Shown: piece after piece, positions 7,370 through 28,390 of the stretch | Layout: every line of letters starts with the position of its first letter | How positions within the stretch are numbered: position 1 is the first letter of the stretch | Source of the DNA: Prochlorococcus marinus str. MIT 0917 | Lineage (GTDB): Bacteria; Cyanobacteriota; Cyanobacteriia; PCC-6307; Cyanobiaceae | Assembly (NCBI RefSeq): GCF_027359575.1 | Contig: NZ_CP114784.1 | Coordinates: forward strand, 1,363,819-1,427,818 | Direction: 5' to 3' | DNA: 64,000 nt | The notes under the pieces: generated by a model | What the model saw: the letters and a program-made list of their open reading frames with translations, nothing else | Database searches by the model: none | Told to the model about the DNA's origin: nothing | Program-made: the position numbers and the translations under genes

Positions 7370-7453
7370 ATATTTTAGAAACCCAGAACTGATGCATACC
7401 TGCGATACTCGCGGATGTTGCTTTTCAAACTATCCCAGTTTTGCAAGTTTGTT
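7370..7453 (-). pseudogene. methyltransferase 3'-end remnant
   Basis: Immediately downstream of the sulfotransferase-type gene, the - strand reads GMHQFWVSKI then a stop, matching the last residues (GMYQFWVSKI) of the methyltransferase at 4438-7032. An LQNW-like stretch precedes it with a frame break. It is a leftover of a methyltransferase C-terminus. Confidence 0.75.
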
Positions 7454-9208
7454 TTAGGAGGTTATGTCTCGATATTTATCTGTTTGAGTAAGGATTCCTA
7501 TAGCAGGTTTCAGCATCTCTTTGTAATTTTTCCATCCACCAATTGATTTTGAATTGATTGGGGAACGAACTTGAACATTGCTTGCTGTTGAAACAGACCG
7601 TTCATTTAGATGTGGCGATAGATATGAATCATTCCATTTCCAACCTAACCAAGCAATTAAAGATTTAATTACTTGATCAGGATTTCTTACTAATGATTCA
7701 TAATTTAAGTCGTAAATTTTGGATCTGAATCTATTCTTATATTTTGTCATTACTTCGTCTTGATTTAAATAAACTCTTGCGCAATCCACTAGGGATGAAG
7801 AATATTCATTCCCTTTAGCAAAATGTGTTCGGTAGATTGAAAGAATATTATCTAAGGGATCGCGAAAACAGTGAATAATTTTTGCGTTAGGTATTTGCTT
7901 GGCAATGATACCTGCGTATTGATAATTATATAAGTTTTTATTAGTTGTTATGTTGGATTGTTTCTTAAGGTCTTTGATTTTATTCCAATATCCCTCAGCA
8001 AGTGTTAATACTTGATCACCTTTTTTATTATCTAGGAATGTTTCCATGAGGATATCAGTCTCCCCTAAATCATCAACAATATAATTCATACTAATAATTG
8101 ATTCCAATAATGTAGAACCACTTCTGGGCATCCCTACAATGAAAATACTCTCTGGTGATTTTGCGTATTCTTGTTGATTAATTTCTTGTTTATCAGATTC
8201 AATCAGCAATACTTTAGATTGGTTGATTAAATGATCTGCTATTGATGGCTGAAGAATAAGTTTTAAATTATTTGCCAATATAAGATATTTTGCACTTGCT
8301 TTATAATGTTTTTCCTTATGACAAATATTTGCTCTTGCTAAGTAAATTTTTACTTGATCTTTTTGTGATTTGTTATTTAAGATACTTTTAGAAAAGAGTT
8401 GATTCTGCCATTTATTATTTTCATCAGAAAATTTAAGTAACGATAGTGAATAGTATGCTTCTGTGAAATCAGGGTTGATTTCAATTGCTTTGCGAGTAGA
8501 TAATTCTGCTTCTTGTAATTTACCAAGATCTTTCAATATGATTCCCAGGTTGGAATGGGCTTCTGCAAAATTAGGATTTATTTCAATTGCTTTGCGAGTG
8601 GATAATTCTGCGTCTTGAAATTCGCCATAATCTCTCAATATGCCTCCTAGATTGTAATATCCTTTTGCGTAATTAGGTTTAATTTTTATTGCTTTGCGAT
8701 ATGAGATTTCTGCTTCTTGTAATTTACCAAGATCTATCAATACGTTTCCCAGATTGGAATGCGCCTCTGCGTAATAAGGATTGATTTCAATTGCTTTGCG
8801 GCAAGACAATTCTGCTTCTTGTAATTTACCAAGATCTCTCAATATGATTCCCAGATTGGAATGGGCTTCTGCAAAATAAGGATTGATTTCAATTGCTTTG
8901 CGGCATGATAATTCTGCTTCTTTTAAGCTTCCAAGATCTTGCAATATGATTCCATAATTAGAAAAAACCCTGTGATCTTTAAATCCTTCATTGATGAAAT
9001 ATTGATAATATTTAGTTGCTTCTAAAATATTTCCTTGTGAATGAAACTTAAATGCTTGATTGATTATTTGTTCTTTAGAAGGTTTAGAAGGAGTATTGGT
9101 ATTAACAGTAAGATTTCCTTTGCTTTCTCTTAATGGAAATGGAACTGCAAATGTTTTCACCTTTGTAATTTTACTCATTTCTTCTCCTTCTTGACTAGAA
9201 CTATCCAT
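7454..9208 (-). CDS. TPR protein with C-terminal sulfotransferase
   Basis: 584 aa. N-terminal VKTFAVPFPL segment, about six TPRs (residues 60-265), then a sulfotransferase domain (about 350-584). The PAPS 5'-phosphosulfate loop is FIVGMPRSGSTLLES (about 354-368). A second conserved stretch IIHCFRDPLDNILSIYR supplies the Arg/Ser of the 3'-phosphate site. It should transfer sulfate from PAPS to a hydroxyl or Tyr. It is paralogous to 21502-23664 and 28393-30249. The TPRs presumably select the acceptor. A methyltransferase remnant follows the stop codon. Confidence 0.86.
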   Translation of the reverse strand: MDSSSQEGEEMSKITKVKTFAVPFPLRESKGNLTVNTNTPSKPSKEQIINQAFKFHSQGNILEATKYYQYFINEGFKDHRVFSNYGIILQDLGSLKEAELSCRKAIEINPYFAEAHSNLGIILRDLGKLQEAELSCRKAIEINPYYAEAHSNLGNVLIDLGKLQEAEISYRKAIKIKPNYAKGYYNLGGILRDYGEFQDAELSTRKAIEINPNFAEAHSNLGIILKDLGKLQEAELSTRKAIEINPDFTEAYYSLSLLKFSDENNKWQNQLFSKSILNNKSQKDQVKIYLARANICHKEKHYKASAKYLILANNLKLILQPSIADHLINQSKVLLIESDKQEINQQEYAKSPESIFIVGMPRSGSTLLESIISMNYIVDDLGETDILMETFLDNKKGDQVLTLAEGYWNKIKDLKKQSNITTNKNLYNYQYAGIIAKQIPNAKIIHCFRDPLDNILSIYRTHFAKGNEYSSSLVDCARVYLNQDEVMTKYKNRFRSKIYDLNYESLVRNPDQVIKSLIAWLGWKWNDSYLSPHLNERSVSTASNVQVRSPINSKSIGGWKNYKEMLKPAIGILTQTDKYRDITS

Positions 9209-9860
9209 CTTTTCTTATTTCTTCTATCTTTTGCTTCTTCCGATTTTACTACTAAGTTCAATTTTTATTCATTCTTTCTGAAATCATTTACCACTTATAG
9301 AGCGAGAATAAAATTAGGTCTGTATATTATTTTTCTACAAGAACATTGTTGAGTATATTTTCCCTTGTAATTCATTGGCATGACAGCGTTTCACGTGGGT
9401 TACATGTGCTATATGTAAAGAAGTAACCCGTTAGTATGACTGAGGTTTATGGTATGCTCTTTTGCGATTGATTATTTAGTGGGGGTGAATATAACTACTA
9501 ATAGATAGTTATAAAATAACAGTTCTAGTTCCACGTGAAACCAAGGTAGAAAATTAATGAACTTAGTTCCAATGGTTTTGGGAGACGACTTTCACACGAT
9601 TATTGTCTGATGCAATAGGGCAACTATCACAGTACCACACTATGTTTTTGCACTACATATAGCAGGAACTATCAATGGGGATAAATACTCTACAAAAGGT
9701 AGATATAGAATGAAAAATAGAGTTGTCATAATTTTGCTTCCTGATATTTGGTGACGAAATAACAGGGATTTAAACCCCCGTGCTTGTCAGCGTCTCCATG
9801 AAGAAATCGTAGAAAGATGGTTTTCTCTACAAAATCAAGAATTAGAAGCTCTTTGAGGAT
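9209..9860. repeat. intergenic repeat cluster between TPR genes
   Basis: Contains the shared upstream block (9230-9380), an 11-bp pair (9388-9409, GTTTCACGTGG/GTTACATGTGC), two copies of the TATTGAGTGGGAG-like element (about 9465 and 9670, each followed by a CTAC/GTAG-type hairpin), and the CGTAGAAAG...CTCTACA hairpin segment (about 9790-9830). The partial repetition suggests two fused spacers. No gene is supported. Confidence 0.55.
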
Positions 9861-12047
9861 TCAGGTAGTCATTTTAGAAACCCAGAACTGATACATTCCT
9901 CTGAAGGTATGTGGCTGTTTTTCTTCAAATTTTTCCCAGTTTTGTAAGTTTGTTTGTTTTTTATCCTCTGGGAAATATTGCTTATAGAGTGATTTAACTG
10001 GTTTTGGAAGCAAGAATCCAAGAAACTCTAATTCATTAGATTTGAGAGTTTCTTGTAGTTGCTTAATGGTGAATCTATGTTCTTGGGTGTGAAAGCATAG
10101 ATCACGGCACTCCGATAATGCGTAAAAGTCCTTAAATGTTGTTAATGAGTTTAAATCTTCTAACTCACCCGAAATAATTTTTTGTCTAAAACTACGAATG
10201 TTATCCTCATTTGGTTGAATTTGTTTGCTGGTAATATAATTTCTTGCTTTAACTATATCTTGTCTTGCTACTTCGCTATATAAACCGAATTTAAGAAAAC
10301 CATTATTTTTTAAAACACTTACTAATGCTTTCAAACCTTTTGAGGGATCATACATATGGTGTAAAACACCCGAACATATAATAAGATCAAACTTTTTTTC
10401 TAGTAAACTTATTTCCAAGATATCCATCTGAATTAGTTCAACATTATCAATTCCAAGTTCATTTACTTTCCTTTGAGCATATGCAAGGCTAGATAAACTT
10501 AAATCTATAGCAGTAACATGAGCATCCTTATAACTCTGTGTATGTAAGATTTGATTACCTGTTCCACATCCCGCTACTAGAACATTTAATTGACTATCTA
10601 CATTACTAGAACTGATATAATTAGGTTTGATTTCATTATTAATTCCTTGTGAAATAGATATTTTTTGACTTTCTGAATTATTTCCATATCTCCATCTAGG
10701 ATATGGATTCTTTTCATATTGAGATTTTACTTTTTGAGAAACATAATCATTAATTGATCCTAGTTTTGTTATCTTTTTAGACAAGCAAATTTCTTTTAGA
10801 GGTTCTGATATTTGCAATTCTATTAGTCCTTTAAAACTTTTATTAGATGAATCAAACGATTTTAAAGATGGTATTTGTTCAGTAAGTTTATATAATGGGA
10901 AATAACAAGATAAAATCGCAATATTTGTTTCATTTACTTCCCCCTCTTTACATCTTTGGATGATTGTGTTAACAGATATATTTTCTTCTTGAGTAAATAA
11001 ATAAATATATTCATTCAAGAAGCATTGCTCTCCTAATGCAATAAGAAATTGTAATTGTTGATAATTAATAGTCTCTATATTTTTCGCGATACGATCGCAT
11101 ATAGTTCTTCTTACTTTTGTTAGCAGTTCCTCCAACTTTTGATCACAAAAGATAGTCTTTTTAATTGCATTAATTATGACTTTATTATTGATAAGTAATT
11201 CTATTTGGGAGAAGTCTGAATCTAATTTTTCTAGAATAAGGGTTATTTCATTTCTATATAAAAAGTGAAATGCATTGAATAATTCTTCATGAGGAACATC
11301 ATTCTTCTCTAGCAAAAGATTTATGATATATTTTAATTTTGATTTATTTAATTGGGATGGGTCTGAATCTTTGAGGAATCTAGTTATTACGGGATAAATA
11401 TTAGAACGTCTTGGATTGATTTCAATTGCTTTCAGATAAGAATCAAATGCGTCTTCTGATTTGCCAAGATCTTTCAGTATATTTCCCAGATTTAAATGCA
11501 CATCTACGTAATCAGGTTTAATTTCAATTGATTTACGGTATGACAATTCTGCTTCTTGTAATTTGCCAATATCTCTTAACAAATTTCCCAGATTTAAATG
11601 AGCATCTGCATAATCAGATTTAATTTCAATTGCTTTGCGATATAACACTTCTGCTTCTTTTGATTTACCAACATCTTTTAACAAATTTCCCAGATTGTAA
11701 TAAGGATTTGCGAAATCAGGTTTAATCTCAATTGCTTTGCGATATAACACTTCTGCTTCTTTGGATTTACCTAGACCTTTTGAAATTGCTCCATAATTAG
11801 AAAAAACTCTGTGATCTTTGAATCCTTGATCTATGAAATATTGATAATATTTTGCTGCTTCTAAAGTATTTCCTTGTGCATGAAACTTAAATGCTTGATT
11901 GATTATTTGTTCTTTAGAGGGTTTAGAACGCGTATTTGTATTAATAGTAATATTGGTTTTGATTTCTCCTAAAGCTAATGGAACTGGGAATGTTTTCACC
12001 TCAGTAATTTTCTTTTTTTCTTTTCTTTCTTTAGTAGAACTATCCAT
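9861..12047 (-). CDS. TPR protein with C-terminal SAM methyltransferase
   Basis: 728 aa paralog of 4438-7032 with only about four TPRs (residues 60-200). It shares the helical linker, the YEKNPYPRW motif, the SAM loop (VLVAGCGTG), the AIDLS acidic site, and the LHHMYDP and MYQFWVSKMTT endings. The two proteins are alike in the linker and catalytic part but differ in TPR number, as expected if TPR units are gained and lost while the enzyme is kept. The 3'-flanking bases after its stop (GATGCTCTTTGAGGATTCA type) also recur behind other members. Confidence 0.87.
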   Translation of the reverse strand: MDSSTKERKEKKKITEVKTFPVPLALGEIKTNITINTNTRSKPSKEQIINQAFKFHAQGNTLEAAKYYQYFIDQGFKDHRVFSNYGAISKGLGKSKEAEVLYRKAIEIKPDFANPYYNLGNLLKDVGKSKEAEVLYRKAIEIKSDYADAHLNLGNLLRDIGKLQEAELSYRKSIEIKPDYVDVHLNLGNILKDLGKSEDAFDSYLKAIEINPRRSNIYPVITRFLKDSDPSQLNKSKLKYIINLLLEKNDVPHEELFNAFHFLYRNEITLILEKLDSDFSQIELLINNKVIINAIKKTIFCDQKLEELLTKVRRTICDRIAKNIETINYQQLQFLIALGEQCFLNEYIYLFTQEENISVNTIIQRCKEGEVNETNIAILSCYFPLYKLTEQIPSLKSFDSSNKSFKGLIELQISEPLKEICLSKKITKLGSINDYVSQKVKSQYEKNPYPRWRYGNNSESQKISISQGINNEIKPNYISSSNVDSQLNVLVAGCGTGNQILHTQSYKDAHVTAIDLSLSSLAYAQRKVNELGIDNVELIQMDILEISLLEKKFDLIICSGVLHHMYDPSKGLKALVSVLKNNGFLKFGLYSEVARQDIVKARNYITSKQIQPNEDNIRSFRQKIISGELEDLNSLTTFKDFYALSECRDLCFHTQEHRFTIKQLQETLKSNELEFLGFLLPKPVKSLYKQYFPEDKKQTNLQNWEKFEEKQPHTFRGMYQFWVSKMTT

Positions 12048-12461: not shown

Positions 12462-12545
12462 AATTAAGTTAGTCATTTGACAAACCCAGAACTGATACAT
12501 ACCTACTTAAAGTCGTGGGATATTGCTTTTCAAATCTTGAACATT
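12462..12545 (-). pseudogene. methyltransferase 3'-end remnant
   Basis: Downstream of the oxygenase-type gene the - strand reads GMYQFWVCQMTN, nearly the end of the methyltransferase at 9861-12047 (GMYQFWVSKMTT). Homology continues into that gene's 3' flank (GATGCTCTTTAA). Confidence 0.75.
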
Positions 12546-12563
12546 TTTTCTTTGTAGCTATTA

Positions 12564-14108
12564 CTATTTGATTGTTATATCAAATGAGATACTTCCTCTT
12601 GTGTAAGCAGCTTTATAAGGAATAGTCCCGTGCCAAAGATACGATGGAAACAATATAAACATTCCAACTTTTGGCTTTATTAATTTGATCTCTTTTTCTC
12701 CGCCAAAGTGAGGTAATTTATAGCCTGAACGATTGAATTCGATCCATCCAGCATTTGATTTGTTTTTTTCAACTTTTGGTTCATCTAAATAATAAACACC
12801 GCTTAACCATCCATTATTGTGGATATGATTTGACTGGAAATCTCCTGGCTCTAAAAAATTTACCCAGCAATTATCAATAGATGCTTGATCAATTTGTTTT
12901 CTTAAAAAAGGGTGATCAAAATCTACTGGTAAATCTTTTATATAAATTTCTATAGCTTGAGATAACATTCTATGAAATTGTGAAATGAAGGGATTGCTCA
13001 TATCTTCAAATAATGCTCTTATCACAGTACCCCCTCTAATTGCCCATCCAATTTGATTTTCTTCAGTTTTTCTACGAGGATCTACCAATAATGAATTTCT
13101 GAATTTCTTATTAAATTCAAAAATGTCTTCTTTGATTAGGTTTTGGCTATAAATTTTTTTGACTAGTTTTGGAAAGTTAATTAATTTGTTAAATTCATCG
13201 AATTTATTGACTCCTCTTAACGCAATAGTTTTGTACGCTAATGCTCTCGTATCACTTTGATTTTTTTCAAGAAATTTGTCGATTAGAATTAAAGCATTTT
13301 GAGGCTTTTTTTCTTTTAGATATAAACTCGCAAACCCCATATACATATCTAAATCAGGCTTTAAAAGCTGGGCTTTCGTGAAACTATTTTTTGCTTCTTT
13401 TAATTTGTTATTTAATTCTAATATTGAGCCCAGAATTAAATAATTATCTGGGGAATCAGAATTAATTTCAATTGCTTTACGAGTGTATAATTCTGCTTCT
13501 TCTAATTTGCCAAGATCTCTCAATATAATTCCCAGATTTAAATGCGCCTGTGCGTAATCAGGTTTAATTTCAATTGATTTACGGTATGACAATTCTGCTT
13601 CTTGTAATTTGCTAATATCTTTTAATAAATTTCCCAGATTTAAATGAGCATCTGTGTAATCAGGTTTAATTTCAATTGCTTTGCGATATAACACTTCTGC
13701 TTCTTGTAATTTACCAATAGCTTGTAACAAATTTGCCAGATTGTAATGAGCATCTGCGAAATCAGGTTTAATTTCAATTGCTTTGCGATATAACACTTCT
13801 GCTTTTTTTGATTTACCTTGACCTTGTGAAATTGCTCCATAATTTGAATAAACTCTGGGTTCATTGAATCCTTGATCTATGAAATATTGATAATATTTTG
13901 CTGCTTCTAAAGTATTTCCTTGTGAATGAAACCTAAATGCTTGATCGATTATTTGTTCTTTAGAGGGTTTAGAACGCGTATTTGTATTAATAGTAATATT
14001 GGTTTTGATTTCTCCTAAAGCAAATGGAACTGGGAATGGTTTCACCTCAGTAATTTTATTTTTTCGTCGCTCTTCTTTCTCCGAACCTTTCGTTTTTTTT
14101 CTATCCAT
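12564..14108 (-). CDS. TPR protein with C-terminal 2OG-Fe(II) oxygenase (second type)
   Basis: 514 aa from the ATG that aligns with paralogs; an in-frame TTG three codons upstream is also possible. VKPFPVPFAL segment, about six TPRs, a more degenerate helical repeat region (about 200-300), then an oxygenase domain (about 350-514). Visible features are CWVNFLEPGDFQSNHIHNNGW... then SGVYYLDEP, a distal SYLWHGTIPY and a final TRGSISFD. The His-x-His/Asn site, distal His and Arg fit the putative 2OG-Fe(II) oxygenase family often fused to TPRs. This differs in sequence from the oxygenase at 2307-3788, so the two were recruited separately. Confidence 0.82.
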   Translation of the reverse strand: MDRKKTKGSEKEERRKNKITEVKPFPVPFALGEIKTNITINTNTRSKPSKEQIIDQAFRFHSQGNTLEAAKYYQYFIDQGFNEPRVYSNYGAISQGQGKSKKAEVLYRKAIEIKPDFADAHYNLANLLQAIGKLQEAEVLYRKAIEIKPDYTDAHLNLGNLLKDISKLQEAELSYRKSIEIKPDYAQAHLNLGIILRDLGKLEEAELYTRKAIEINSDSPDNYLILGSILELNNKLKEAKNSFTKAQLLKPDLDMYMGFASLYLKEKKPQNALILIDKFLEKNQSDTRALAYKTIALRGVNKFDEFNKLINFPKLVKKIYSQNLIKEDIFEFNKKFRNSLLVDPRRKTEENQIGWAIRGGTVIRALFEDMSNPFISQFHRMLSQAIEIYIKDLPVDFDHPFLRKQIDQASIDNCWVNFLEPGDFQSNHIHNNGWLSGVYYLDEPKVEKNKSNAGWIEFNRSGYKLPHFGGEKEIKLIKPKVGMFILFPSYLWHGTIPYKAAYTRGSISFDITIK

Positions 14109-14484
14109 AGATTTCAATTGTTTTACTACTAATACTAATCTTTGTTTACTCTATCTTAAATGAGTTCTGAACTGATACAACGAAAATAAAAATTAGCTTT
14201 TTATATTATTTCTCTACCTAGAGACATACATAAGTAGTAGAAAAGAATCAAACCGAAATTGATGTAATATGATTTATATAATCTCCAAATCAATGTCTAA
14301 ATCACCAATATAAACGGAGAAAAACTATTGAGTGTGATCCAAGCATACGTCTACTGCTGAAGGATAACTTGATTTATATGTTTTGATATGGCGTCTTATC
14401 TCGGTCTCTATGGAGAAATCTAAGAAAGATGGTTTTCTCTACAAAATCAATTACTTTTATGTGCTGATAGTGGTTAAATCTCCG
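14109..14484. repeat. intergenic region duplicated at 27994-28304
   Basis: Runs from the gene's upstream block through AACTATTGAGTGTGAT and GCATACGTCTACT...GAAGGATAACTTGAT to the hairpin segment. It matches the spacer at 27994-28304 closely enough to be a duplication of the whole spacer, continuing into the following methyltransferase remnant. No gene seen. Confidence 0.6.
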
Positions 14485-14590
14485 TTTTAGAAATTCAGAA
14501 CTGATATATACCTGAAAAAGTTAATGGGAATTTCTTTTCTAATTATGCACAGTTTGGGAAGCTTATTTGTTTCTTATCTTCTTGACTTGA
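14485..14590 (-). pseudogene. methyltransferase 3'-end remnant
   Basis: Downstream of the stand-alone oxygenase gene the - strand reads LEKKFPLTFSGIYQF then a stop, matching FEEKHPNTFRGMYQFW of the intact methyltransferases. A KKQTN-like stretch precedes it. Confidence 0.65.
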
Positions 14591-14617
14591 AAAAGATAGG
14601 ATAATATCTCTAAGAAA

Positions 14618-15217
14618 TTAATTAGCAAAACAGATCCATCCAGTAATGATATATTTTGAACCTTCTCTTAAAATGTTACCTCTATGTGCGTGAGTCCATT
14701 CAGCAGGCCATATTAAAGTTAGTCCTTTTCTTGGTTGTATTTCAAGATCATAATGACTGAAATATGTTGAACCACCTTCTTCAACATCATTTAAGTAGGT
14801 CATAAAAGCAAAAATACGGTGAGAACTATCTATGCTTGTTCGCTCAGTATGTATTGCCTTGAAATGTTGGCCAGGTTTATATCTTTGAAGATTGAAGGAA
14901 CTAATTTCTAATTTTTGAGCTAAATTTTTTAAAAAAGGCCATTCGTCTATATAGTTTTTATAGCATATAAAAAGTTCTTCAAAATAAGCCTTAAATGCTT
15001 CATTACCAGGTAGAATAATTTCTTTTGGTTGAATCAAAATATCACTACTATCTTTGATATTAGGATTAATCCCACTCACTGTGATTCCTTTTTTTTGTTT
15101 GGCTAAATTGAGTTCAAAATAGCTAATAAGATCGTCACATATAGATAATGATTCTAGGGTCCAAGATCCAATAAAATGAGGATTAAGATTATTTGTTTTT
15201 ATGAAATTTTTTTTCAT
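14618..15217 (-). CDS. stand-alone 2OG-Fe(II) oxygenase (prolyl 4-hydroxylase-like)
   Basis: 199 aa with no TPRs. The core has YKPGQHFKAIHTER (candidate iron ligands His-x-Glu rather than the usual His-x-Asp), MTYLNDVEEGGSTYF, then PRKGLTLIWPAEWTHAHRG with the distal His and a Lys near SKYIITGW. This is the prolyl 4-hydroxylase-like layout; the family hydroxylates prolines or other side chains. Its ATG directly follows the stop of the TPR-only gene (TAAATG), so translation is probably coupled and the pair acts as a split version of the fused members. The Glu ligand should be treated as tentative. Confidence 0.8.
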   Translation of the reverse strand: MKKNFIKTNNLNPHFIGSWTLESLSICDDLISYFELNLAKQKKGITVSGINPNIKDSSDILIQPKEIILPGNEAFKAYFEELFICYKNYIDEWPFLKNLAQKLEISSFNLQRYKPGQHFKAIHTERTSIDSSHRIFAFMTYLNDVEEGGSTYFSHYDLEIQPRKGLTLIWPAEWTHAHRGNILREGSKYIITGWICFAN

Positions 15218-16501: not shown

Positions 16502-17188
16502 TTTCTGTCTTTTGATTCTTTCCATTTTACTACTAATTTCAATACTTATTAATTTTTTCTGAAATCATTTATTACTTATAGAGCAAGATTAACTAATACT
16601 TGCAATATACTTTATACGATTATTAATAAAATCAACTCATGGAATAGTACTTATCCTGGTTCATCGCTGAACTTTGTCAGTTTGTCACGGGTTTGTCACG
16701 ATAAAAAAATCCCTGAGAACCCAGTTATATCATCTTTCTTTTGGGTAGTTACTATTGAGTGCGAGTATTAATGACTACTACAAGGTAGTTATAGAGTAAA
16801 AGTTGTAGTCCACGTGAGTCTAAAGTAAAATTTATAAACCTGTTTCCAATGGTGTTGAGAGACGTGTTTTACGTGAGTTTTACGTGACCTTTTGTCACCT
16901 TTTCTGTAAAGACATCCTAGAAAGAGTATTTTCTCTACACTTGTGATTAATTTTTCAAGGTTTAGTTACTCAAATTTATTTACGACTTCTCTACATATTT
17001 ACAACGTTTTGATATCAATCAAGTACCTTGTTCATACGGAGATCCTGTATTAATTAGGATTGCTTTCTTTGAGAATATTTTAGTACAGATATGCTATTTC
17101 TTGGCTTTGGGGTCGTCAGGTGATCAGAGGAAAAATCAGCAAGATTTGCCTATGTTATAGGCATTCCTATTCTAGTCTGTATGCAGTG
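16502..17188. repeat. intergenic repeats between TPR gene and K+ channel
   Basis: Contains the upstream block of the TPR-only gene, tandem TTTGTCAC units with 11-bp spacing (16681-16702), a TATTGAGTGCGAG element with ACTAC/GTAGT hairpin (about 16747-16790), a perfect 11-bp pair GTTTTACGTGA twice (16866-16887), and a hairpin segment (about 16895-16940). An in-frame GTG at 17120 could extend the channel gene, but no homology or RBS supports it. Confidence 0.55.
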
Positions 17189-18157: not shown

Positions 18158-18270
18158 GTACCCACAGTTCAGTATCAACCAAATCCACCCATATTAGTGA
18201 ATAACGCTTTTTTCTAGTACTAAATCGACTAATTGTTTTTCTATTGAGTTTAGAAATTTTTCTACACCAA

Positions 18271-18435: not shown

Positions 18436-20876
18436 ACTTTTGTCTCAATTTCTTTTTTAATTGAGCTGGATACTCTCTCCAAAACCTCTTGCCAATTATT
18501 TCGCTCTTTTTGTCGGAATAATCTCATTGATGGGTACCAAAATGTATTTTCTCCTTGAAGTCCCCATATCCATCCTGGAACATAGTGAAGAAGTAACCAG
18601 GTAGATTTTCCCATCCCTCCAGCTAAATGAGCTATGGAAGTATCACTGGTAATGATTAAATCACAATTTTCAATAATGCCAGCAATTTCAAGGAAATCCC
18701 ATGTGTTATTAATTTGTGGTTGGCATTCAACAAACTTATTTTTAAATGAACAATGATCTAATTGCTCTGAACCAAATGCTTTTTGTAGTGATAGAAAATT
18801 GAAATTATTATTTCTAGCAATAGTAGAGAAAGTTTCTAAAGGTAGTGAGCGTCCCTTTAGAGCTTGCTTTTCGGCATTTGGATTTCCTTGCCAATTAATA
18901 CCTATAATTGGTCTTCTTTCATTAGAAAGAATGTTTTCCCATTTTTTGACGAATTCAACAGATGGAAAAATATACGGATCATTAATGATTGGATTGTCTG
19001 GTCTTACTTGTAAATATCGCGGTAAAGATAAGAGTGGAATCCATGTCCCTTCTGAAACTTTTATAGTTTGTTCAGGAGTTAATGGATTTGTTTCAATGCC
19101 TGATGATTTAATTAAAGTATGTAGTTCTTCCTGAGCACAAAAAGAAACATCTAGACCTTGACTTCTTAGATAAGGAATATAACGCATATTTTGCAAAGTA
19201 TCGCCTAAACCTTGTTCACTAATGACTAAAAGTTTTTCTCCTTTTTTTAATTTTTTATGCTCGATTCGTTTTAGGTTTGTATTACCGTGAGTACAAGCAG
19301 GCTGCTCTGTTTTGAATCTAAATTCATAGTTTTCTAAACCATTTTTATAGTCACCTTGAAGTAGTTCAAGTAATGAAAGATTCCAAAATGCGTCTGCGTA
19401 ATCAGGTTTGATTTCAATTGCTTTGCGATATGACAATTCAGCTTCTTTGAATTTGCCAAGATCGATCAATATGATTCCGAGATTGTAATGTGCCTCTGCA
19501 AAATCAGGTTTAAGTTCAATTGCTTTGCGGTATGACAATTCAGCTTCTAGTAATTTGGCAAGATCTTTCAATACGTTGCCTAGATTGGAATGTGCCATTG
19601 CGAAATCAGGTTTGATTTCAATAGCTTTGCGATATGACAATTCAGCTTCTTGTGATTTGCCAAGATCGCTCAATATGATTCCGAGATTGTAATGTGCCTC
19701 TGCAAAATCAGGTTTAAGTTCAATAGCCTTGCGATATGACAATTTTGCTTCTAGTAATTTGCCAAGATCTTTCAATATTTTTCCAAGATTGTAATGTGCC
19801 TCTGAGAAATCAGGTTGGATTTCAATAGCTTTACGTAGTGATAATTCAGCTTCTAGTAATTTGCCAAGATCTTTCAATACGTTGCCTAGATTGGAATGTG
19901 CCATTGCGAAATCAGGTTTGATTTCAATAGCTTTACGTAGTGATAATTCAGCTTCTTGTAATTTGCCAAGATCTTTCAATACGTTGCCTAGATTGGAATG
20001 TGCCATTGCGAAATCAGGATTAAGTTCAATAGCTTTGCGAGTAGATAATTCAGCTTCTTGTAATTTGCCAAGATCTTTCAATACGTTGCCTAGATTGTAA
20101 TTCGCTGCTAAGAAATCAGGTTTGATTTCAATTGCTTTGCGGTATGACAATTCAGCTTCTTGTAATTTGGCAAGATCTTTCAATACGTTGCCTAGATTGG
20201 AATGTGCCATTGCGAAATCAGGTTTGATTTCAATAGCTTTGCGATATGACAATTCAGCTTCTTGTAATTTGCCAAGATCGCTCAATATGATTCCAAGATT
20301 GTAATGTGCCTCTGAGAAATCAGGTTTGATTTCAATTGTTTTATGGTATGACAATTTTGCTTCTTGTAATTTGCCAAGATCTTTCAATAAGCTTCCGAGA
20401 TTGTAATGTGCCATTGCGAAATCAGGTTTGATTTCAATTGTTTTATGGTATGACAATTTTGCTTCTTTTAATTTGCCAAGATCTTTCAATACGTTTCCCA
20501 GATTGTAATTCGCCTCTGCGAAATCAGGTTTGATTTCAATTGCTTTGCGAATATATAATTCTGCTTCTTGTAATTTGCCAAGATCTTTCAATATGTTTCC
20601 GAAATTAGCAAAAACTCTGTGATCTTTGAAACCTTGATTTATGAAATCTTGATATAGTTTTGCTGCTTCTGGAATATTGCCTTGCGAATGAAATTTAAAT
20701 GCTTGATTAATTATTTGTTCTTTAGAAGGTTTAGAAGGCGTATTTATATTAATAGTAATATTTCCTTGATTCTCTGTTAAATGAAATGGAACTGGGAATA
20801 TTTGGACTTTAGGGATCTTCTTGTTTTCTTTCTTTTCTTTCTGAGGCTTCTTCATTTGTTCCTTCTTCACTTTCAT
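18432..20876 (-). CDS. TPR protein with C-terminal GT9/heptosyltransferase-like domain
   Basis: 814 aa, with the largest TPR array in the window. After the VQIFPVPFHL segment come about twelve near-identical 34-aa TPRs plus a degenerate cap (AFWNLSLLELLQGDYKNG). The C-terminal domain (about 535-805) has LLVISEQGLGDTLQ, SLPRYLQV, IIGINWQGNPNAEK and the donor-site motif DLIITSDTSIAHLAGGMG. This is the layout of TPR-linked GT9-type transferases related to ADP-heptose:LPS heptosyltransferases. The nearby gmhA/hldE/gmhB genes make ADP-heptose a plausible donor. The last ~741 bp of this domain are almost identical to the gene at 33652-35556. Confidence 0.85.
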   Translation of the reverse strand: MKVKKEQMKKPQKEKKENKKIPKVQIFPVPFHLTENQGNITININTPSKPSKEQIINQAFKFHSQGNIPEAAKLYQDFINQGFKDHRVFANFGNILKDLGKLQEAELYIRKAIEIKPDFAEANYNLGNVLKDLGKLKEAKLSYHKTIEIKPDFAMAHYNLGSLLKDLGKLQEAKLSYHKTIEIKPDFSEAHYNLGIILSDLGKLQEAELSYRKAIEIKPDFAMAHSNLGNVLKDLAKLQEAELSYRKAIEIKPDFLAANYNLGNVLKDLGKLQEAELSTRKAIELNPDFAMAHSNLGNVLKDLGKLQEAELSLRKAIEIKPDFAMAHSNLGNVLKDLGKLLEAELSLRKAIEIQPDFSEAHYNLGKILKDLGKLLEAKLSYRKAIELKPDFAEAHYNLGIILSDLGKSQEAELSYRKAIEIKPDFAMAHSNLGNVLKDLAKLLEAELSYRKAIELKPDFAEAHYNLGIILIDLGKFKEAELSYRKAIEIKPDYADAFWNLSLLELLQGDYKNGLENYEFRFKTEQPACTHGNTNLKRIEHKKLKKGEKLLVISEQGLGDTLQNMRYIPYLRSQGLDVSFCAQEELHTLIKSSGIETNPLTPEQTIKVSEGTWIPLLSLPRYLQVRPDNPIINDPYIFPSVEFVKKWENILSNERRPIIGINWQGNPNAEKQALKGRSLPLETFSTIARNNNFNFLSLQKAFGSEQLDHCSFKNKFVECQPQINNTWDFLEIAGIIENCDLIITSDTSIAHLAGGMGKSTWLLLHYVPGWIWGLQGENTFWYPSMRLFRQKERNNWQEVLERVSSSIKKEIETKV
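18472..19212. repeat. gene-conversion block, copy 1 of 2
   Basis: 741 bp that match 33686-34426 base for base apart from one difference seen by eye (position 19190). Similarity drops sharply at both ends, and the neighbouring TPR and linker sequences differ much more. The shared part encodes the GT9-like catalytic core. Confidence 0.85.
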
Positions 20877-21414
20877 TTCAAATATTTTACGCCTAGTTTT
20901 AATGCAGTCTGTTTGAAATCATTTTTTGTTCTTATTGAGTGAGAAAAAAATAGTTCTTTGTATTATTTTTCTAAGTTGTGAAGATATGATCAGGGTACAA
21001 CATTACCAAACGGAAACAGAATGTAATATGATTTAAGTGATTAACGCAATTTCTATATTAATGTCTAAAACGGAAATATAAAAGTGCAAATATGTCTTCT
21101 ATGAGTTTCACACACGTTTCATAGGAGAATTGAGGGGGAATTGTTTGAGTGAGGCAATAGAATTATAGAGAATATTTTGTGTAGAAACTATTGAATGGGA
21201 GTAAAATACTAGGATAAAACCTAGTCATAGACTGAATACTTCATTTTCAGGTGGGTTTCAATTGGGAAATAACTACTTACTTGTAGTGGCTTAGTAGTGG
21301 GAATTTTCACAGGAGTTTCATTTGTCACCTTGCCACCTTCTATATAGAGAAGTCGTAGAAGAATTTATTTCTCTACACATCTCATAAATTAGATGCTCTT
21401 TGAGGATTCAGTTA
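20877..21414. repeat. intergenic repeat cluster between TPR genes
   Basis: Upstream block with GGAAACAGAATGTAATATGA (about 21013), three tandem 11-bp units (21094-21126), an AACTATTGAATGGGAGT element (about 21187), further 11-bp pairs (about 21244-21265 and 21304-21325), and a hairpin segment (CTATATAGAG; CGTAGAAG...CTCTACA). The order is the same as at 3789-4437. No gene seen. Confidence 0.55.
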
Positions 21415-21495
21415 GTCATTTAAGAAACTCAGCACTGATACATTTCCTTGAAAGTGTGCAAATGTTTTTCTTCAAACTTTGCCTAGTTTTGTGAG
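21415..21495 (-). pseudogene. methyltransferase 3'-end remnant
   Basis: Downstream of the sulfotransferase-type gene the - strand reads KFEEKHLHTFKEMYQC, stop, VS, stop, MTN. It aligns with KFEEKQPHTFRGMYQFWVSK of the methyltransferase at 9861-12047. Two stops show it has decayed. Confidence 0.75.
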
Positions 21496-21501
21496 CTTGT
21501 T

Positions 21502-23664
21502 TTAGGAGGTTATATCTTGATATTTATCCATTTGAGTAAGGATCTCAATAGCAGGTTTAAGCATATCTTTGTAGTTCTTCCATCCACCAATTGATTTTGA
21601 ATTGATTGGGGAACGAACCTGAACACTGCTTGCTGTAGATACTGAGCGTGGATTGAGATGAGGTGATAGATATTTATCGTGCCACTCCCAACCTAACCAA
21701 GAGATCAAAGATTGAATTTCTTTATTAGTATCTGACACTAATGAGTCGTAATTTAAGTCATATATTTGAGATCGGAATCTATTCTTGTATTCTGTCATTA
21801 TATTTTCTTGATCTAGATAAACTCTTGCGCAATCAACTAAAGAAGAGGAATATTCATTTCCTCTATCAAAATGTGCTCGGTAAATTGAAAGAATATTATC
21901 TAAAGGATTTCTAAAACAATGAATTATTTTTGCGTTTGGTATCTTCTTAGCAATAATGCCTGTGTATTGATAATTAAATAGGTTTTTATTAGTTGTTATA
22001 AGCAATTCAGTCTTATTATTTACTTTTTTCCAATACAATTCGGCAAGATTTATTTCTTGTTTAGATTTCTTACTCTCAACGAATGATTCCTCTAGAATAT
22101 TAATCTCACCTAGATCATATAAATCATCTCTCATACTAAGCACTGATTCCAATAATGTTGAACCACTTCTAAACATACCTACAATAAAAATACTCTCAGG
22201 TGGATTTGCTTGTTCTTCTTGATTAATTCCTTTTTTATTAGATTCAATAAGTAATATTTTTGATTTATTAAATATCATCTCGGGTTGAGATGGTTTAATA
22301 TCAAGTTTTAATTTATTTGCCAATTTAAGGTATCTAGAACTTTCTTCATAATTTTTCTCCTTATGAAGAATATTTGCTCTTGCGAAGTAAATATCAATTT
22401 GCTCTACTTGTGATTTGTTATTTAAGATATTTTCAGAAAAGAGTTGGTTCTTCCAAATATCATTATTACTATTAGAGTATTTCAAACCAGATAGATTAAA
22501 ATATGCTTTTTCTAACTTGGGATTAATTTCAATTGCTTTTCGGTATGACAATTCTGATTCTTGTAATTTGCCAAGATCTCTCAATATACTTCCCAGATTA
22601 GAATGAGCCATTGCGAAATCAGGATTAAGTTCAATTGCTTTGCGAGTAGATAATTCAGCTTCTTGTAATTTACCAAGATCACTAAATATCGTTCCTAGAT
22701 TTAAATGCGCTTTTGGCTCATTAGGATTAAGTTCAATTGCTTTGCGAGTAGATAATTCTGCTTCTTGTAAGTTGCCAAGCTTAATCAATATGCTGCCGAG
22801 ATTGGAATGTGCCTCTGCGAAATCAGGATTAAGTTCAATTGCCTTGCGAGTAGATAATTCAGCTTCTTGTAATTTACTAAGATCACTAAATATCGTTCCT
22901 AGATTTAAATGTGCTTTTGGCTCATTAGGATTAAGTTCAATAGCTTTGCGAGTAGATAATTCAGCTTCTTGTAATTTGCCAAGATCTTTCAAAATATTAC
23001 CCAGATTGTTATATGCCTCCGCGAGATCAGGATTAAGTTCAATTGCCCTGCTAAAAGATATTTCTGCTTCTTGTAACTTGCCCAGATTTTTTAGCGTATT
23101 ACCTAGGTTGTAATACGCCTCAGCGAAATCAGGTTTAATTTCAATTGCTTTGCGGTATGAGAATTCTGCTTCTTTTAACTTGCTAATATCTTTCAATGTG
23201 CTTCCCAGATTGTAATGCGCCTCAGCGAAATCAGGTTTAATTTCAATAGCTTTGCGTAGTGATAATTCAGCTTCTTGTAATTTGCCAAGATCCCTCAATA
23301 TGCTTCCCAGATTGGAATGTGCTTCTTCGAAATTAGGATTTAGTGTAATTGCCTTGCGAGTGTATAATTCTGCTTCTTGTAATTTGCCAAGATTTTTTAA
23401 AATGATTCCATAATTAGAAAAAACTCTGTCATCACTCAACCCTTGATCAATAAAATCTTGATAATATCTTACCGCCTCTTTAATATTTCCTTGTGAATGA
23501 AATTTAAATGCTTGATTAATTATTTGTTCTTTAGAAATTTTTTTAGGAGTATTAGTGATAATAGTAATATTTTCTTGATTTTCTCTTAAAGTAAATGGAA
23601 CTGGAAATGTAATTACTTTATAGACTATCTTTTTCTCTTGATCTTTGTCACCAGATTCTTCCAT
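21502..23664 (-). CDS. TPR protein with C-terminal sulfotransferase
   Basis: 720 aa. VITFPVPFTL segment, about ten TPRs, then the sulfotransferase domain (about 488-720). The PAPS loop is FIVGMFRSGSTLLES, where Phe replaces the Pro of its paralogs. IIHCFRNPLDNILSIYR and the ending RSPINSKSIGGWKNY are shared with 7454-9208 and 28393-30249. It predicts sulfate transfer from PAPS to an unknown acceptor. Alternate TPRs in the array repeat (APKAHLNLGTIFSDL units), consistent with duplication of two-repeat blocks. A methyltransferase remnant follows the stop. Confidence 0.86.
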   Translation of the reverse strand: MEESGDKDQEKKIVYKVITFPVPFTLRENQENITIITNTPKKISKEQIINQAFKFHSQGNIKEAVRYYQDFIDQGLSDDRVFSNYGIILKNLGKLQEAELYTRKAITLNPNFEEAHSNLGSILRDLGKLQEAELSLRKAIEIKPDFAEAHYNLGSTLKDISKLKEAEFSYRKAIEIKPDFAEAYYNLGNTLKNLGKLQEAEISFSRAIELNPDLAEAYNNLGNILKDLGKLQEAELSTRKAIELNPNEPKAHLNLGTIFSDLSKLQEAELSTRKAIELNPDFAEAHSNLGSILIKLGNLQEAELSTRKAIELNPNEPKAHLNLGTIFSDLGKLQEAELSTRKAIELNPDFAMAHSNLGSILRDLGKLQESELSYRKAIEINPKLEKAYFNLSGLKYSNSNNDIWKNQLFSENILNNKSQVEQIDIYFARANILHKEKNYEESSRYLKLANKLKLDIKPSQPEMIFNKSKILLIESNKKGINQEEQANPPESIFIVGMFRSGSTLLESVLSMRDDLYDLGEINILEESFVESKKSKQEINLAELYWKKVNNKTELLITTNKNLFNYQYTGIIAKKIPNAKIIHCFRNPLDNILSIYRAHFDRGNEYSSSLVDCARVYLDQENIMTEYKNRFRSQIYDLNYDSLVSDTNKEIQSLISWLGWEWHDKYLSPHLNPRSVSTASSVQVRSPINSKSIGGWKNYKDMLKPAIEILTQMDKYQDITS

Positions 23665-24030: not shown

Positions 24031-25728
24031 TCATACTTTTTCTTTCATTTCCTTTTTTAGTTTATTTGAGACATTTTCCATAACTTCTTGCCAATTATGT
24101 CGTTCGTTTTGCCGAAATAATCTCATTGATGGATACCAAAATGTATTGTCCCCTTTCAGTCCCCATCTCCAGTCAGGTAAATGATTTAGGAGTAACCAGG
24201 TTGGTTTACCCATTCCTCCAGCTAGGTGAGCAATTGAAGTGTCAGAAGTAATAATTAAATCACAGTTTTCCATAATGGCAGCATTTTCCAGAAAATCCCA
24301 AGTGGCATCAATTTTAGCTTGGCATTCAACAAACTTATTTTTAAATGAGCAATGATGGAATTGCTCTGAACCAAATCCTTTTTGTAGTGATAAAAATTTG
24401 AAGTTATTATTTCTCGTAAGACTAGAGAAGGTTTCTAGAGGTAATGAGCGCCCTATGTGATCAGTCTTTTCTGCATTTGGATTTCCTTGCCAATTAATAG
24501 CTACGATTGGTCTTTTTTCTTGGGAGAGTATGTTTTTCCATTTCTTTTTTAGTTCATTAGTTGAAAAGATATATGGGTTTGAAATGATTGGATTATTCGG
24601 ACTTACTTGTAGATATCTAGGTAAAGATAATAGTGGGATCCATTGACCCTCTGAAACTTCGCTTGCCTCCTCTGGAGTTAATGGATGTTGATCAATACCA
24701 GAGGATTTGATTAATGAATGTAGTTTTGTTTGAGCACAAAAAGAAATTTTTAGGCCTTGATTTCTAATGTAAGGAATATATCTCATGAATTGAAGGGTAT
24801 CTCCTAAACCTTGCTCAGTGATGACTAATAGCTTTTCTCCTTTTTGTGATTTTTTATGCTCGATTCGTTTGAGTTTTGTAATACCGTGACTAATAATAGG
24901 CTTCTTTCTTTTGAATCTAAATTCATAGTTCTCTAAACCATTTTTATAGTCACCTTGAAGTAGTTCAAGTAATGAAAGATTCCAAAATGCGTCTGCGAAA
25001 TTAGTATTAATTTCAATTGCTTTGAGAGTTGCTATTTCTGCTTCTTTTAGCTTTCCCATATCTTTTAATATGCCTCCAAGATTATAATGAGCCTCTGCAA
25101 AATTAGGATTAATTTCAATAGCTTTGCGTTGTGAAATTTCTGCTTCTTGTAATTTGCCGAGATCCATCAATATGTTTCCTAGATTGGAATGAGCTTTAGC
25201 GAAATCAGGATTTATTTCAATTGCTCTGCGTTGTGAAATTTCTGCTTCTTGTAATTTGCCAAGATCTCTCAATATGTTTCCTAGATTGGAATGAGCATCA
25301 GCGAAATTGGGCTTTAGTTTAATTGCTCTGCGTTGTGAAATTTCTGCTTCTTGTAAGTTACCAATATGATTCAATAAATTTCCTAAATTGTAATGAGCCT
25401 CTGCGAAATCAGGTTTCAGTTTAATTGCTCTGCGAGTATTTAGTTCAGCTTCTTTTAATTTGCCTATATTTTTCAATAATACGCCATAATTGGAAAATAC
25501 TCTGTAATCAATGATTCCTTGTTGAATACAATTTTGATAATATTGTTCTGCTTTTGAAATGTTTCCTTGAGAATGAAGCTTAAATGCTTGATTGACTATT
25601 TCCTCTTTAAAATGTTGAGAAGGCGTATTTGTATTTATAGTATGATTTCCTTGATTGACTTTTAAAGCAAATGGAACTGGGAATATTTTTACTTCAGAAA
25701 CCTTTTTGATTTTATTAGATTCATCCAT
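24031..25728 (-). CDS. TPR protein with C-terminal GT9/heptosyltransferase-like domain
   Basis: 565 aa. VKIFPVPFAL segment, about six TPRs and the AFWNLSLLELLQGDYKNG cap, then the GT9-like domain with LLVITEQGLGDTLQFMRYIP, SLPRYLQV, INWQGNPNAEK and LIITSDTSIAHLAGGMG. It is clearly paralogous to 18432-20876 and 33652-35556 but diverged from both along the whole catalytic part, unlike those two, which share a near-identical block. A role in adding a sugar, possibly heptose, is inferred. Confidence 0.85.
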   Translation of the reverse strand: MDESNKIKKVSEVKIFPVPFALKVNQGNHTINTNTPSQHFKEEIVNQAFKLHSQGNISKAEQYYQNCIQQGIIDYRVFSNYGVLLKNIGKLKEAELNTRRAIKLKPDFAEAHYNLGNLLNHIGNLQEAEISQRRAIKLKPNFADAHSNLGNILRDLGKLQEAEISQRRAIEINPDFAKAHSNLGNILMDLGKLQEAEISQRKAIEINPNFAEAHYNLGGILKDMGKLKEAEIATLKAIEINTNFADAFWNLSLLELLQGDYKNGLENYEFRFKRKKPIISHGITKLKRIEHKKSQKGEKLLVITEQGLGDTLQFMRYIPYIRNQGLKISFCAQTKLHSLIKSSGIDQHPLTPEEASEVSEGQWIPLLSLPRYLQVSPNNPIISNPYIFSTNELKKKWKNILSQEKRPIVAINWQGNPNAEKTDHIGRSLPLETFSSLTRNNNFKFLSLQKGFGSEQFHHCSFKNKFVECQAKIDATWDFLENAAIMENCDLIITSDTSIAHLAGGMGKPTWLLLNHLPDWRWGLKGDNTFWYPSMRLFRQNERHNWQEVMENVSNKLKKEMKEKV

Positions 25729-26239: not shown

Positions 26240-26345
26240 TGTTGAAGAAACTCTGACCTGCTTCATCGATTTGAAGGTATTGAGATGTTTCTTTTATGTT
26301 TTGCTCAGTTCGATAAGTTTGTTTGTTTGCTTCTTATCTTTTGCT
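26240..26345 (-). pseudogene. methyltransferase 3'-end remnant, decayed
   Basis: On the - strand KQTNLSN then a stop aligns with KQTNLQNW of the intact methyltransferases. The following bases still align (AAACAT...ACCTTCAAA) but with frame breaks. It is the most decayed of the six remnants. Confidence 0.55.
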
Positions 26346-26367
26346 ACATACTTTTGATGAAGAGGGA

Positions 26368-27993
26368 TTAAAGTTTTGAATTGGAGGTTTGCTTGGAAAG
26401 AATGTCCCTTTTAAAATGCTTGAAGAATTTGGGTTCTTTTATTTGCTCATTAGTAATTTTACTGACGCTTGTATCTTTTATTTTTTGTGCATATGCGATC
26501 CAGTTTCTCATTATAAGAAAGTCATTTAAATTAAATCCATCTATACTTTTGCTCAATTCTCCCCAATTCTTATTATCTTGATCTATTTCTTTTTCGATGG
26601 CTCTCCAACTTTCATTGTAGTTCATTGGCTGATCACCCGAGGTTGCTATCTCTTTATATTGAGGGAATTCTAGTGGATATTCAGAACAACCTCTTTTGAC
26701 TTTAGATAGTAAATCAATTCTAATATTATTTTGAATGTGAATATTTAACTTTTTAGAGATTTTGAATGCTTCAGTTAGACTTGAACAATATATAAGTCCT
26801 TTATAAAATCCTGAGATATTAGGTCGGAGTTCGATAATAGATTTTCTAGTATTATTATTTTTAAGTTTTAACTGATTGAAAACTAAGAATAGTTTAATTA
26901 ATTCAATGATTGAATCTACTTCAACTTGAACCTTATAACAACTAAAGCAAAATTCAGGAATTATTTTATGTTGATTGAAGATTAGTTTGTGTCTATTACA
27001 ATTTAAATTCACTTCATTTTTCTTATATATTTGTGATAAATTTATTTCTAATTTTAAATTATATTTTTTATAAATAATAAGTCCATCTTTATAAATTCTT
27101 ATCGCTTCATTATCAGTTATAAGAAAATTCTCTTTATGAATCAGATTGATTTCTTTGAATTCTTCATTTATTCTATATAATAAGTTTGACTCAATCTTTT
27201 TTGGTTTGTATATAGTGAGTAAATTTATTAAATTATGCTTAATAGATTCGTTTTTAGGATTTAATTTCAATGCTTTATGTATAGATTTTTCTGCTTCTTC
27301 TAGTTTTCTATAGTCAACTAATATGTTTCCCAGATTAGAATGAGCCTCTGCGTAATTGGGATTATATTCAATTGCTTTGCGAATAGATAATTCTGCTTCT
27401 TTTAATTTGCCAAGATCTTTTAATAAAACTCCGAGATTGGAATGTGCTTCTGCGCAATCAGATTTGATTTCAATTGCTTTGCGGTATGATAATTCTGCTT
27501 CTTTTAACTTTCCAAAATCTCTAAATATGTTTCCCAGATTGGAATAAGCTTCTGCGCAATTAGGATTAATTGCAATTGCTTTTTGATATGATAATTCTGC
27601 TTCTTTTAACTTTCCAAAATCTCTAAATATGTTTCCCAGATTGGAATAAGCTTCTGCGCAATTAGGATTAATTTCAATTGCTTTGCGGTATAATAATTCT
27701 GCTTCTTTTAGTTTGCTAAGACCTTTCAATATGCTTCCATAATTAGAAAAAACTATGTGATTTTTGAAACCTTGATTTATGAAATATTGATAATATCTTG
27801 CTGCTTCTAGAATATTCCCTTGTGAATGTAACTTAAATGCTTTGTTGATTATTTGCTCTTTAGTTATTTTAGATGAAGTATGGGTAGGAATACTAATATT
27901 TTCTTTGATTTCTCCTAAAGCAATCGGAACTGAGAATGTTTTAATTTCAGTGATTTTATTTTTTAGTTGGTCTTCTTTGTCCGAACCGTTCAT
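26368..27993 (-). CDS. TPR protein with unrecognised C-terminal domain
   Basis: 541 aa. IKTFSVPIAL segment and about five TPRs (residues 60-245), of which two 102-bp units (around 27485-27690) are almost exact copies. The C-terminal half (about 255-541) matches no family I recognise. It has a His/Cys-containing stretch CNRHKLIFNQHKIIP...FCFSCYKVQVEVDS, an ELRPNISGFYKGLIYC stretch and RGCSEYPLEFPQY. The clustered Cys/His suggests metal binding or a thiol active site, but this is a guess. By analogy with its neighbours it is probably an enzyme on the common chassis. Confidence 0.75.
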   Translation of the reverse strand: MNGSDKEDQLKNKITEIKTFSVPIALGEIKENISIPTHTSSKITKEQIINKAFKLHSQGNILEAARYYQYFINQGFKNHIVFSNYGSILKGLSKLKEAELLYRKAIEINPNCAEAYSNLGNIFRDFGKLKEAELSYQKAIAINPNCAEAYSNLGNIFRDFGKLKEAELSYRKAIEIKSDCAEAHSNLGVLLKDLGKLKEAELSIRKAIEYNPNYAEAHSNLGNILVDYRKLEEAEKSIHKALKLNPKNESIKHNLINLLTIYKPKKIESNLLYRINEEFKEINLIHKENFLITDNEAIRIYKDGLIIYKKYNLKLEINLSQIYKKNEVNLNCNRHKLIFNQHKIIPEFCFSCYKVQVEVDSIIELIKLFLVFNQLKLKNNNTRKSIIELRPNISGFYKGLIYCSSLTEAFKISKKLNIHIQNNIRIDLLSKVKRGCSEYPLEFPQYKEIATSGDQPMNYNESWRAIEKEIDQDNKNWGELSKSIDGFNLNDFLIMRNWIAYAQKIKDTSVSKITNEQIKEPKFFKHFKRDILSKQTSNSKL

Positions 27994-28304
27994 TTTGCTT
28001 TTCTATCCTTAGATTTGAATTATTTTACTACTAATACTAATCTTTGTTTGCGCTATCTTAAATGTGTTCTGAACTTATACAACGAAAATAAAAAGTATTT
28101 TTTTCTATGATTGACATAATCTCTAAATCAAAATATAAACCGAGAAAAACTATTGAGTGTGATTGAAGCATACGTCTACTTCTGAAGGATAACTTGATGT
28201 ATATGTTTTCATGTAGCGTCTTATCTCGTTCTCTATGGAGAAATTCAAGAAAGATTGTTTGTTCTACAAAATCAAATATTTTTATGATCTGGTATTGGTT
28301 AAAG
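27994..28304. repeat. intergenic region duplicated at 14109-14484
   Basis: Second copy of the spacer described at 14109-14484: TTTTACTACTAATACTAATC, GTTCTGAACTTATACAACGAAAATA, AACTATTGAGTGTGATT, GCATACGTCTACTTCTGAAGG and the hairpin segment in the same order. It precedes a gene with a different C-terminal domain, so the spacer moved or was copied independently of the enzyme part. Confidence 0.6.
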
Positions 28305-28390
28305 GCCATTTTAAAAAACCCATAACTGATATATAACTAAGAAAGTTAATTGAAATTTCTTTTTAAATTATGCACAGTTTTGGAAGCTAG
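28305..28390 (-). pseudogene. methyltransferase 3'-end remnant, decayed
   Basis: Downstream of the third sulfotransferase gene the - strand reads VIYQLWVF then a stop, matching GMYQFWVSK. It is most like the remnant at 14485-14590, with which the adjoining spacer is also shared. Confidence 0.6.

Follow-up and report, generated by a model that had tools for sequence, protein, structure and literature searches.

TPR-enzyme units and the sequences behind them

The window is the whole stretch of 64,000 nucleotides analyzed here (G000:C1:1363819-1427818), which belongs to the closed 1.92-Mb genome of Prochlorococcus marinus str. MIT 0917. It contains an array of TPR genes that all lie on the minus strand, and the coordinate used as the start of a gene in the first-pass annotation is its stop-codon end. 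Two units of the array are intact TPR-methyltransferases (MT): 4438..7032 (Pfam TPR_1 and Methyltransf_25; MT-tail HMM E 9e-36), whose last ~134 nt (4438-4572) represent the parent sequence of the stubs described below, and 9861..12047 (assigned by Pfam; tail at 9861-9994, MT-tail HMM E 5e-35). The first-pass annotation claimed that pieces of this tail are still encoded just after the stop codons of six genes that now end in something else, and both blastn and an independent HMM confirm it for all six. Comparison by blastn of MT 3' ends with the 500 nt that follow each TPR gene gave matches at all six loci, with best E-values from 6e-37 (21502) to 3e-10 (28393), and no match downstream of the GT9-like units 18432, 24031 and 33652. 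The MT-tail HMM was built from 14 MT tails, all from other genomes and none from MIT 0917; its eight matches in the window comprise both intact MTs and the six claimed tails, with no others (E from 2e-7 to 8e-16 over the six), and the best match in 5.7 Mb of shuffled (first-order Markov) control DNA had an E of 0.29.

Three of these genes are TPR-sulfotransferases. The unit 7454..9208 (Sulfotransfer_3, Pfam 8.1e-29) is followed directly after its stop by a stub at 7371..7453 (HMM 7e-15 over 7454-7371), which is frameshifted, contains a stop and has its edge at -94, edge positions being counted from the MT stop with minus meaning upstream. Behind the unit 21502..23664 (Pfam 2.2e-26) lies a stub at 21412..21501 (HMM 2e-15 over 21502-21412) with the edge at -94 and three in-frame stops, and behind 28393..30294, which clusters with 7454 and 21502, the most decayed stub of the six at 28313..28391 (HMM 2e-7). 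The TPR-2OG-Fe(II) oxygenase unit 12564..14117 (2OG-FeII_Oxy_5, Pfam 1.3e-24) has its stub at 12473..12548 (edge ~-82, HMM 1e-11), 15-17 nt past the stop. At 14618..16525 the ORFs and Pfam reveal a TPR-only ORF (15218-16525) followed by an abutting, separate 2OG-Fe(II) oxygenase ORF (14618-15217), with a stub containing stops at 14476..14584 (edge ~-108, HMM 8e-16); a TPR ORF and an oxygenase ORF in such an unfused arrangement recur at L014 (4997-6375 and 6441-9037). The unit 26368..27993 carries a C-terminal domain without a Pfam match, here called U, a class found in eight genomes, and a stub at 26244..26364 (edge ~-124 to -130, HMM 2e-11). The units without an MT stub are 18432..20876, 24031..25728, which served as a control, and 33652..35556, all three being judged by blastn; the GT9-like assignment was demonstrated for 24031 only, and weakly (Glyco_transf_9 E 0.00096, below the curated cut-off).

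The tail peptides quoted in the first-pass annotation were found behind the stops when the DNA was read in the MT frame (GMHQFWVSK behind 7454, GMYQFWVCQMT behind 12564 and KFEEKHLHTFKEMYQC behind 21502), broken up by in-frame stops and frameshifts. About 30 codons were said to be left; an MT tail does remain, but its extent is not uniform and ranges over approximately the last 27-44 MT codons. Past the MT stop a weaker homology goes on in about half of the units. The genome of MIT 0917 has MT stubs outside the window as well (L013, L014, L016), and DNA matches to the MT 3' end, many of them of stub length, are present in 38 of the 41 genomes of the genus.

Other features are interspersed in the window. 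Heptose-synthesis-type genes stand within the TPR array at 30657-33619 (a SIS-domain isomerase at 30657, PfkB plus cytidylyltransferase at 31768 and a HAD phosphatase at 33089), and an opposite-strand gene at 17120-17980 (+) encodes an ion-channel-like protein, judged by eye from a TVGYGD-type motif. The Cyano-1 sRNA (RF01701) is present in two copies on the minus strand (861-925 and 39056-39120). A short hairpin-capable element, GTAGAGAAA...TTTCTACGATTTCT, is found repeatedly, 200-500 nt ahead of many units and also behind others, for example in the intergenic stretches 14381-14455 and 16862-16940.

Genome-wide, ~44 units share an N-terminal domain (ITEVKTFPVPFALGE...SKEQIINQAFKFHSQGN) and a TPR scaffold with a variable number of repeats, and the enzymes that stand behind the TPRs differ. 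Pfam identifies a SAM methyltransferase, a sulfotransferase and two types of 2OG-Fe(II) oxygenase; further ends are a TylF-like methyltransferase, a weakly scoring GT9-like domain, the Pfam-less U, an FkbM methyltransferase, GT41 and a weak match to NKWYS capsular synthesis. Classes were named by Pfam where it scored and by motifs elsewhere, 'SGNH', 'OX6' and 'OXb' being motif-based labels unconfirmed by Pfam, and the enzyme clusters were drawn from 75 loci of MIT 0917 and related genomes. The tail is borne by 40/40 MT units, 27/38 sulfotransferases, 13/16 TylF and 8/8 U units, and is nearly missing from the GT9-like (1/20) and GT41 (0/9) classes, frequencies that are biased toward tail-bearing units by the choice of loci through tail matches. 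A diverged TPR-MT paralogue of 780 aa with the same tail (~40%) is encoded at L144 (genome C1:726844-727632) and has a counterpart of 780-800 aa in most genomes of the genus; this type is possibly the ancestral member.

Edges and histories of the stubs

The edge of a stub depends on the class of the enzyme in front of it. It lies at -94 for the sulfotransferases, with their own stop adjoining (~-130 for a second sulfotransferase subtype), at -106 for TylF, about -134 for SGNH, ~-124 for FkbM, ~-130 for U, -82 or -135 for OX5 and -108 for OX3 (one unit only). In classes found in several genomes the edge is identical in each, the stub begins 0-40 nt past the stop of the replacing enzyme, and the edges of all classes fall within ~-138 to -82, i.e. 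56 nt. Because the edge is fixed per class and common to many genomes, the junction appears to have arisen once per enzyme class and to have been inherited since. The first-pass annotation spoke of a recurrent right-hand breakpoint: the looser clustering is indeed there, but the breakpoint is class-fixed and inherited, and the six window genes amount to four junction types, with -94 common to three sulfotransferases, rather than to six events. The differences between classes argue against one fixed recombination site, and the clustering of their edges could, as one possibility, have resulted from successive nibbling that started at one founding junction.

The proposal that related strains should carry the same locus with an intact MT is borne out beside guaA, where the locus is an MT in some genomes and another enzyme with an MT stub in others. 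The guaA-adjacent unit of MIT 0917 is an MT (1358196-1360721, just left of the window), and the same locus holds an MT also in G001, G002, G018 and G026, a sulfotransferase in G006, G013, G017, G028, G038 and G039, TylF in G011, U in G007, SGNH in G036, a tailless oxygenase-like unit in G004 and only a stub in G009; in the other genomes examined, no enzyme of these types lies within reach of guaA. The flank homology at this locus, up to 5 kb long (82-90%), enters the MT tail from outside and ends at the class edge. On average, the guaA stubs are closer to the MTs of the same locus than to other MTs in 6/7 cases, with a tie in the seventh, and closer to same-locus MT tails than to same-class stubs elsewhere in 7/7. 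The relatives compared are at species level only, and no case was found among them in which the enzyme is swapped between two near-identical outer flanks. A search for orthologues of the six window loci by their intergenic "address" led to matches behind units with mixed enzymes and to no clean allele; similarly, L085 and L055 were rejected as a simple allelic swap, their left and right flanks mapping to two different units, with the right edge alone usable.

At three loci the remains are layered, the current enzyme being followed by the tail of an earlier non-MT enzyme and then by the MT tail. In G040 (L094) an OX6 unit precedes a sulfotransferase tail (4007-3953) and an MT tail from 3952; in G020 (L061) an NKWYS-like unit precedes an FkbM tail (3721-3765) and an MT tail from 3777; in G015 (L084) an OXb unit precedes a TylF tail (8618-8663) and an MT tail from 8678. 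The inner tails were recognized with HMM E-values of 3e-5, 7e-5 and 3e-3, respectively, and they stand at about the distance from the MT tail that is seen in the intact class. This stacking indicates that enzyme replacement is serial and not limited to the MT. Thus the MT was rightly named as an enzyme that had been replaced, since its tails remain, but the process is not MT-specific, as other enzymes have left their tails too. Further remnants were noted at L071 of G017 (10040-12700), where a GT41 remnant (+83) and, farther on, another MT-tail stub (+312) follow a diverged MT, which may reflect a succession of MT, GT41 and MT, and in MIT 0917 at L019 (6127-6256, ~811.1 kb in the genome), where a GT41 tail remnant lies 44 nt behind an oxygenase-like unit, and at L017 (8512-8620), an orphan OX5 tail.

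Fresh copies are seen as well. In MIT 0917, 718 nt are identical between 18472-19189 (unit 18432) and 33686-34403 (unit 33652) and cover most of the GT9-like domain; the adjacent DNA is 60-94% identical on the TPR side and unrelated on the other side from ~12 codons before the stop. The identity suggests that the cassette was copied within this genome very recently. Two TylF units of MIT 0917 match at 92-100% as far as the stop codon and at 66-68% in the stub, and are unrelated beyond it.

The histories of the stub and of the 5' flank are decoupled from that of the enzyme. The nearest neighbours of non-MT stubs belong to the same enzyme class in 10/67 cases, compared with 9.2 expected from shuffled labels, and those of the 5' flanks in 2/33 compared with 5.6 expected, while for the enzymes themselves it is 64/67. 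Similarity of stubs and of enzymes is uncorrelated in sulfotransferase (Mantel p 0.71), TylF (0.24) and U units (0.54), the stubs being short (about 75-135 nt) and their similarity measures consequently noisy; in MT units, where the tail is still coding, tail and enzyme similarity are correlated. Furthermore, in same-class pairs with a four-fold identity of at least 0.8 the stubs are less alike than the four-fold sites in 19/19. The left flanks are alike among most units and hence provide no locus tag. Since both flanks are decoupled from the enzyme, either the flanks have been exchanged or the enzymes have been homogenized between units, and each amounts to recombination.

We had three ways of producing such stubs to weigh. 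In our opinion they were very probably left by replacement of the C-terminal enzyme in a modular family, each class having been joined once, the composite having spread by recombination and the stub decaying thereafter. One could also think of deletion instead of replacement: in a tandem of the type [TPR-X][TPR-MT], a deletion from the stop of X into the MT tail would leave the MT 3' end behind X. The units do stand in tandem, the stubs start within 40 nt of the stop of X, and the idea suits the first origin of each junction; but a class keeps one edge at many loci and in many genomes, independent deletions at the same base are implausible, exchange is needed anyway, and the stub and the enzyme do not share their history. 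As a complete account, deletion is therefore possible and rather doubtful. Independent loss of the MT at each of the six loci at a recurrent breakpoint, as the first-pass annotation had it, agrees with the presence of stubs at all six and with the narrow range of edges, but we hold it to be improbable given that class-specific edges are common to several genomes and that the six genes share four junction types; for the three sulfotransferases, whose junction is found in other genomes too, it is largely excluded.

Origin and decay of the tails

Among the sister genera, nearly all occurrences of the tail peptide are at the end of a long MT frame and in frame with it. Three candidates for stubs outside the genus were rejected, two short-frame exceptions (G044 and G141) being MT genes broken by frameshifts and G128 a continuous MT. 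Two short MT 3'-end fragments in G270, from another genus of the family (L136 and L137), may be stubs of the same kind. MTs of proteobacteria (Pelagibacteraceae, Rhodospirillaceae, Gallionella and others) align up to residue 312-314 of 317 with 41-48% identity. Carriage of the MT by phages was considered and rejected, as no phage record encodes it.

Compared with intact MT tails, the stubs have excess differences of.064,.051 and.048 at codon positions 1, 2 and 3, an evenness that is best read as neutral decay on top of inherited variation. In-frame stops are present in 40/70 stubs, and 23/70 are still open, therefore some should be young. Homology to a coding 3' end, disruption of the frame together with even substitutions, and a coding tail in outgroups were all found, and we regard the stubs as decayed MT 3' ends, i.e. 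pseudogene remnants. Judged from these comparisons, the order with the MT first holds at the level of the family, because the outgroup tail is the in-frame C-terminus of an MT and decayed stubs are essentially confined to Prochlorococcus. The direction claimed in the first-pass annotation, from MT to another enzyme, is retained to that extent; an MT need not, however, once have stood at every one of the six loci, because stubs and flanks are exchanged independently of enzymes and because G004 has stubs. In this closed genome there are several stubs, but array-type MTs are absent, the diverged core paralogue alone being present. A tail in genomes without the MT was named beforehand as a sign of a conserved 3' element, and G004 is such a genome, yet the MT origin is not refuted by it, because the decay of stubs ignores codon position and the tail is part of a reading frame in the outgroups.

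It is very improbable that the shared DNA is a functional element conserved at the 3' end (a terminator, a UTR or a recombination site) instead of a scar, although it stands behind most classes and in G004 and some of the homology extends past the MT stop. The stub consensus is MT coding sequence with decay even over codon positions, conservation drops from 0.68-0.78 in the tail to 0.55-0.58 in the flank beyond the stop, a flank that is recognizable in 50/106 units only, Rfam gives no match, and the GT9-like and GT41 units lack it almost or entirely. The codon-position, flank and Rfam tests revealed no constraint in the stubs beyond the sequence and structure inherited from the MT. A universal element past the MT stop was rejected on the same flank figures, the flank being in MIT 0917 confined to the array. 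A tRNA or tmRNA fragment in the 3' flank, suggested by the GGGGTTTAAATCCC motif, was likewise rejected, ARAGORN having found no tRNA in the window; Rfam returned nothing for the L011 flank even at E 1, and only Cyano-1 for window positions 1-40000 at gathering thresholds.

Proposed exchange of C-terminal enzymes

The replacement that we favor would proceed on a fixed order of modules: a constant N-terminus with the TPR array, an exchangeable enzyme and the downstream flank. Each foreign enzyme class would have entered an MT-type unit a single time, at a point 82-138 nt before the MT stop, and these first junctions may have been deletions between tandem units or illegitimate insertions. The composite of enzyme, stub and flank would then have spread between units and between strains by recombination, and the tail, now outside the reading frame, would decay neutrally until it is refreshed by exchange or fronted by a further enzyme. 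Homologous recombination very probably lies behind this exchange of C-terminal cassettes, and we infer that the TPR repeats would serve as its left arm and the MT tail together with the DNA that follows it as its right arm. A further step would be to suppose that these arms are kept for an ongoing intra-genomic cassette exchange akin to antigenic variation, with ~44 scaffolds in a 1.9-Mb genome and stacked stubs as the record of successive changes, an idea which we put forward tentatively and consider less probable than its opposite.

Comparable exchange is known from Rhs and CdiA, in which recombination joins new C-termini and displaced "orphan" C-terminal modules are found downstream (PMC3967940). 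The TPR family shares with them the constant N-terminal scaffold, the exchangeable C-terminus and the remnants of earlier C-termini downstream (PMC3967940). However, its remnants are the last tens of codons and decay, whereas those of Rhs/CDI are whole silent modules, and its C-terminal domains are glycan-type enzymes; Pfam found TPR repeats and enzymes only in the units scanned, and no Rhs repeats, CdiA scaffold, toxin or immunity gene. By analogy, the TPR family works like the Rhs/CDI tip exchange but is not part of it. In the replacement flexible genomic islands of aquatic bacteria, surface-related genes are exchanged between strains at fixed loci, for which homologous recombination and phage pressure have been held responsible (PMC4033161). 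The guaA locus resembles them in being one locus with a gene content that differs between strains; unlike in these islands, what is exchanged in the TPR family is one enzyme domain inside a gene, and a 3' stub that can still be read stays behind.

The types of enzymes and the neighbouring heptose-type genes suggest a surface or phage-receptor function of the TPR-enzyme units. We would expect them to vary the modification of surface glycans, plausibly under selection by phages, and variable surface chemistry fits because the array combines heptose-synthesis-type genes with glycan-type enzymes; phage pressure of this sort has been put forward for the replacement islands (PMC4033161). Among the papers searched, none joins Prochlorococcus, TPR and sulfotransferase. 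Over-representation of TPR Pfams in low-light Prochlorococcus is reported, and the TPR proteins there are interpreted as photosystem or adaptation proteins (PMC11357015); the passages on them make no mention of modular enzyme ends, exchange or stubs.

If replacement is the right reading, each stub identifies the enzyme that was replaced, the degree of its decay serves as a relative age and the stacking reveals the order of replacement. Shuffling at the scale of domains would thus take place in a genus that is among the most streamlined of the free-living ones, within an island that also holds heptose-synthesis-type genes, and offers a testable case that Prochlorococcus varies its surface chemistry through swaps of C-terminal modules. 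The large TPR families of low-light strains, hitherto related to the photosystem, may need to be reinterpreted.
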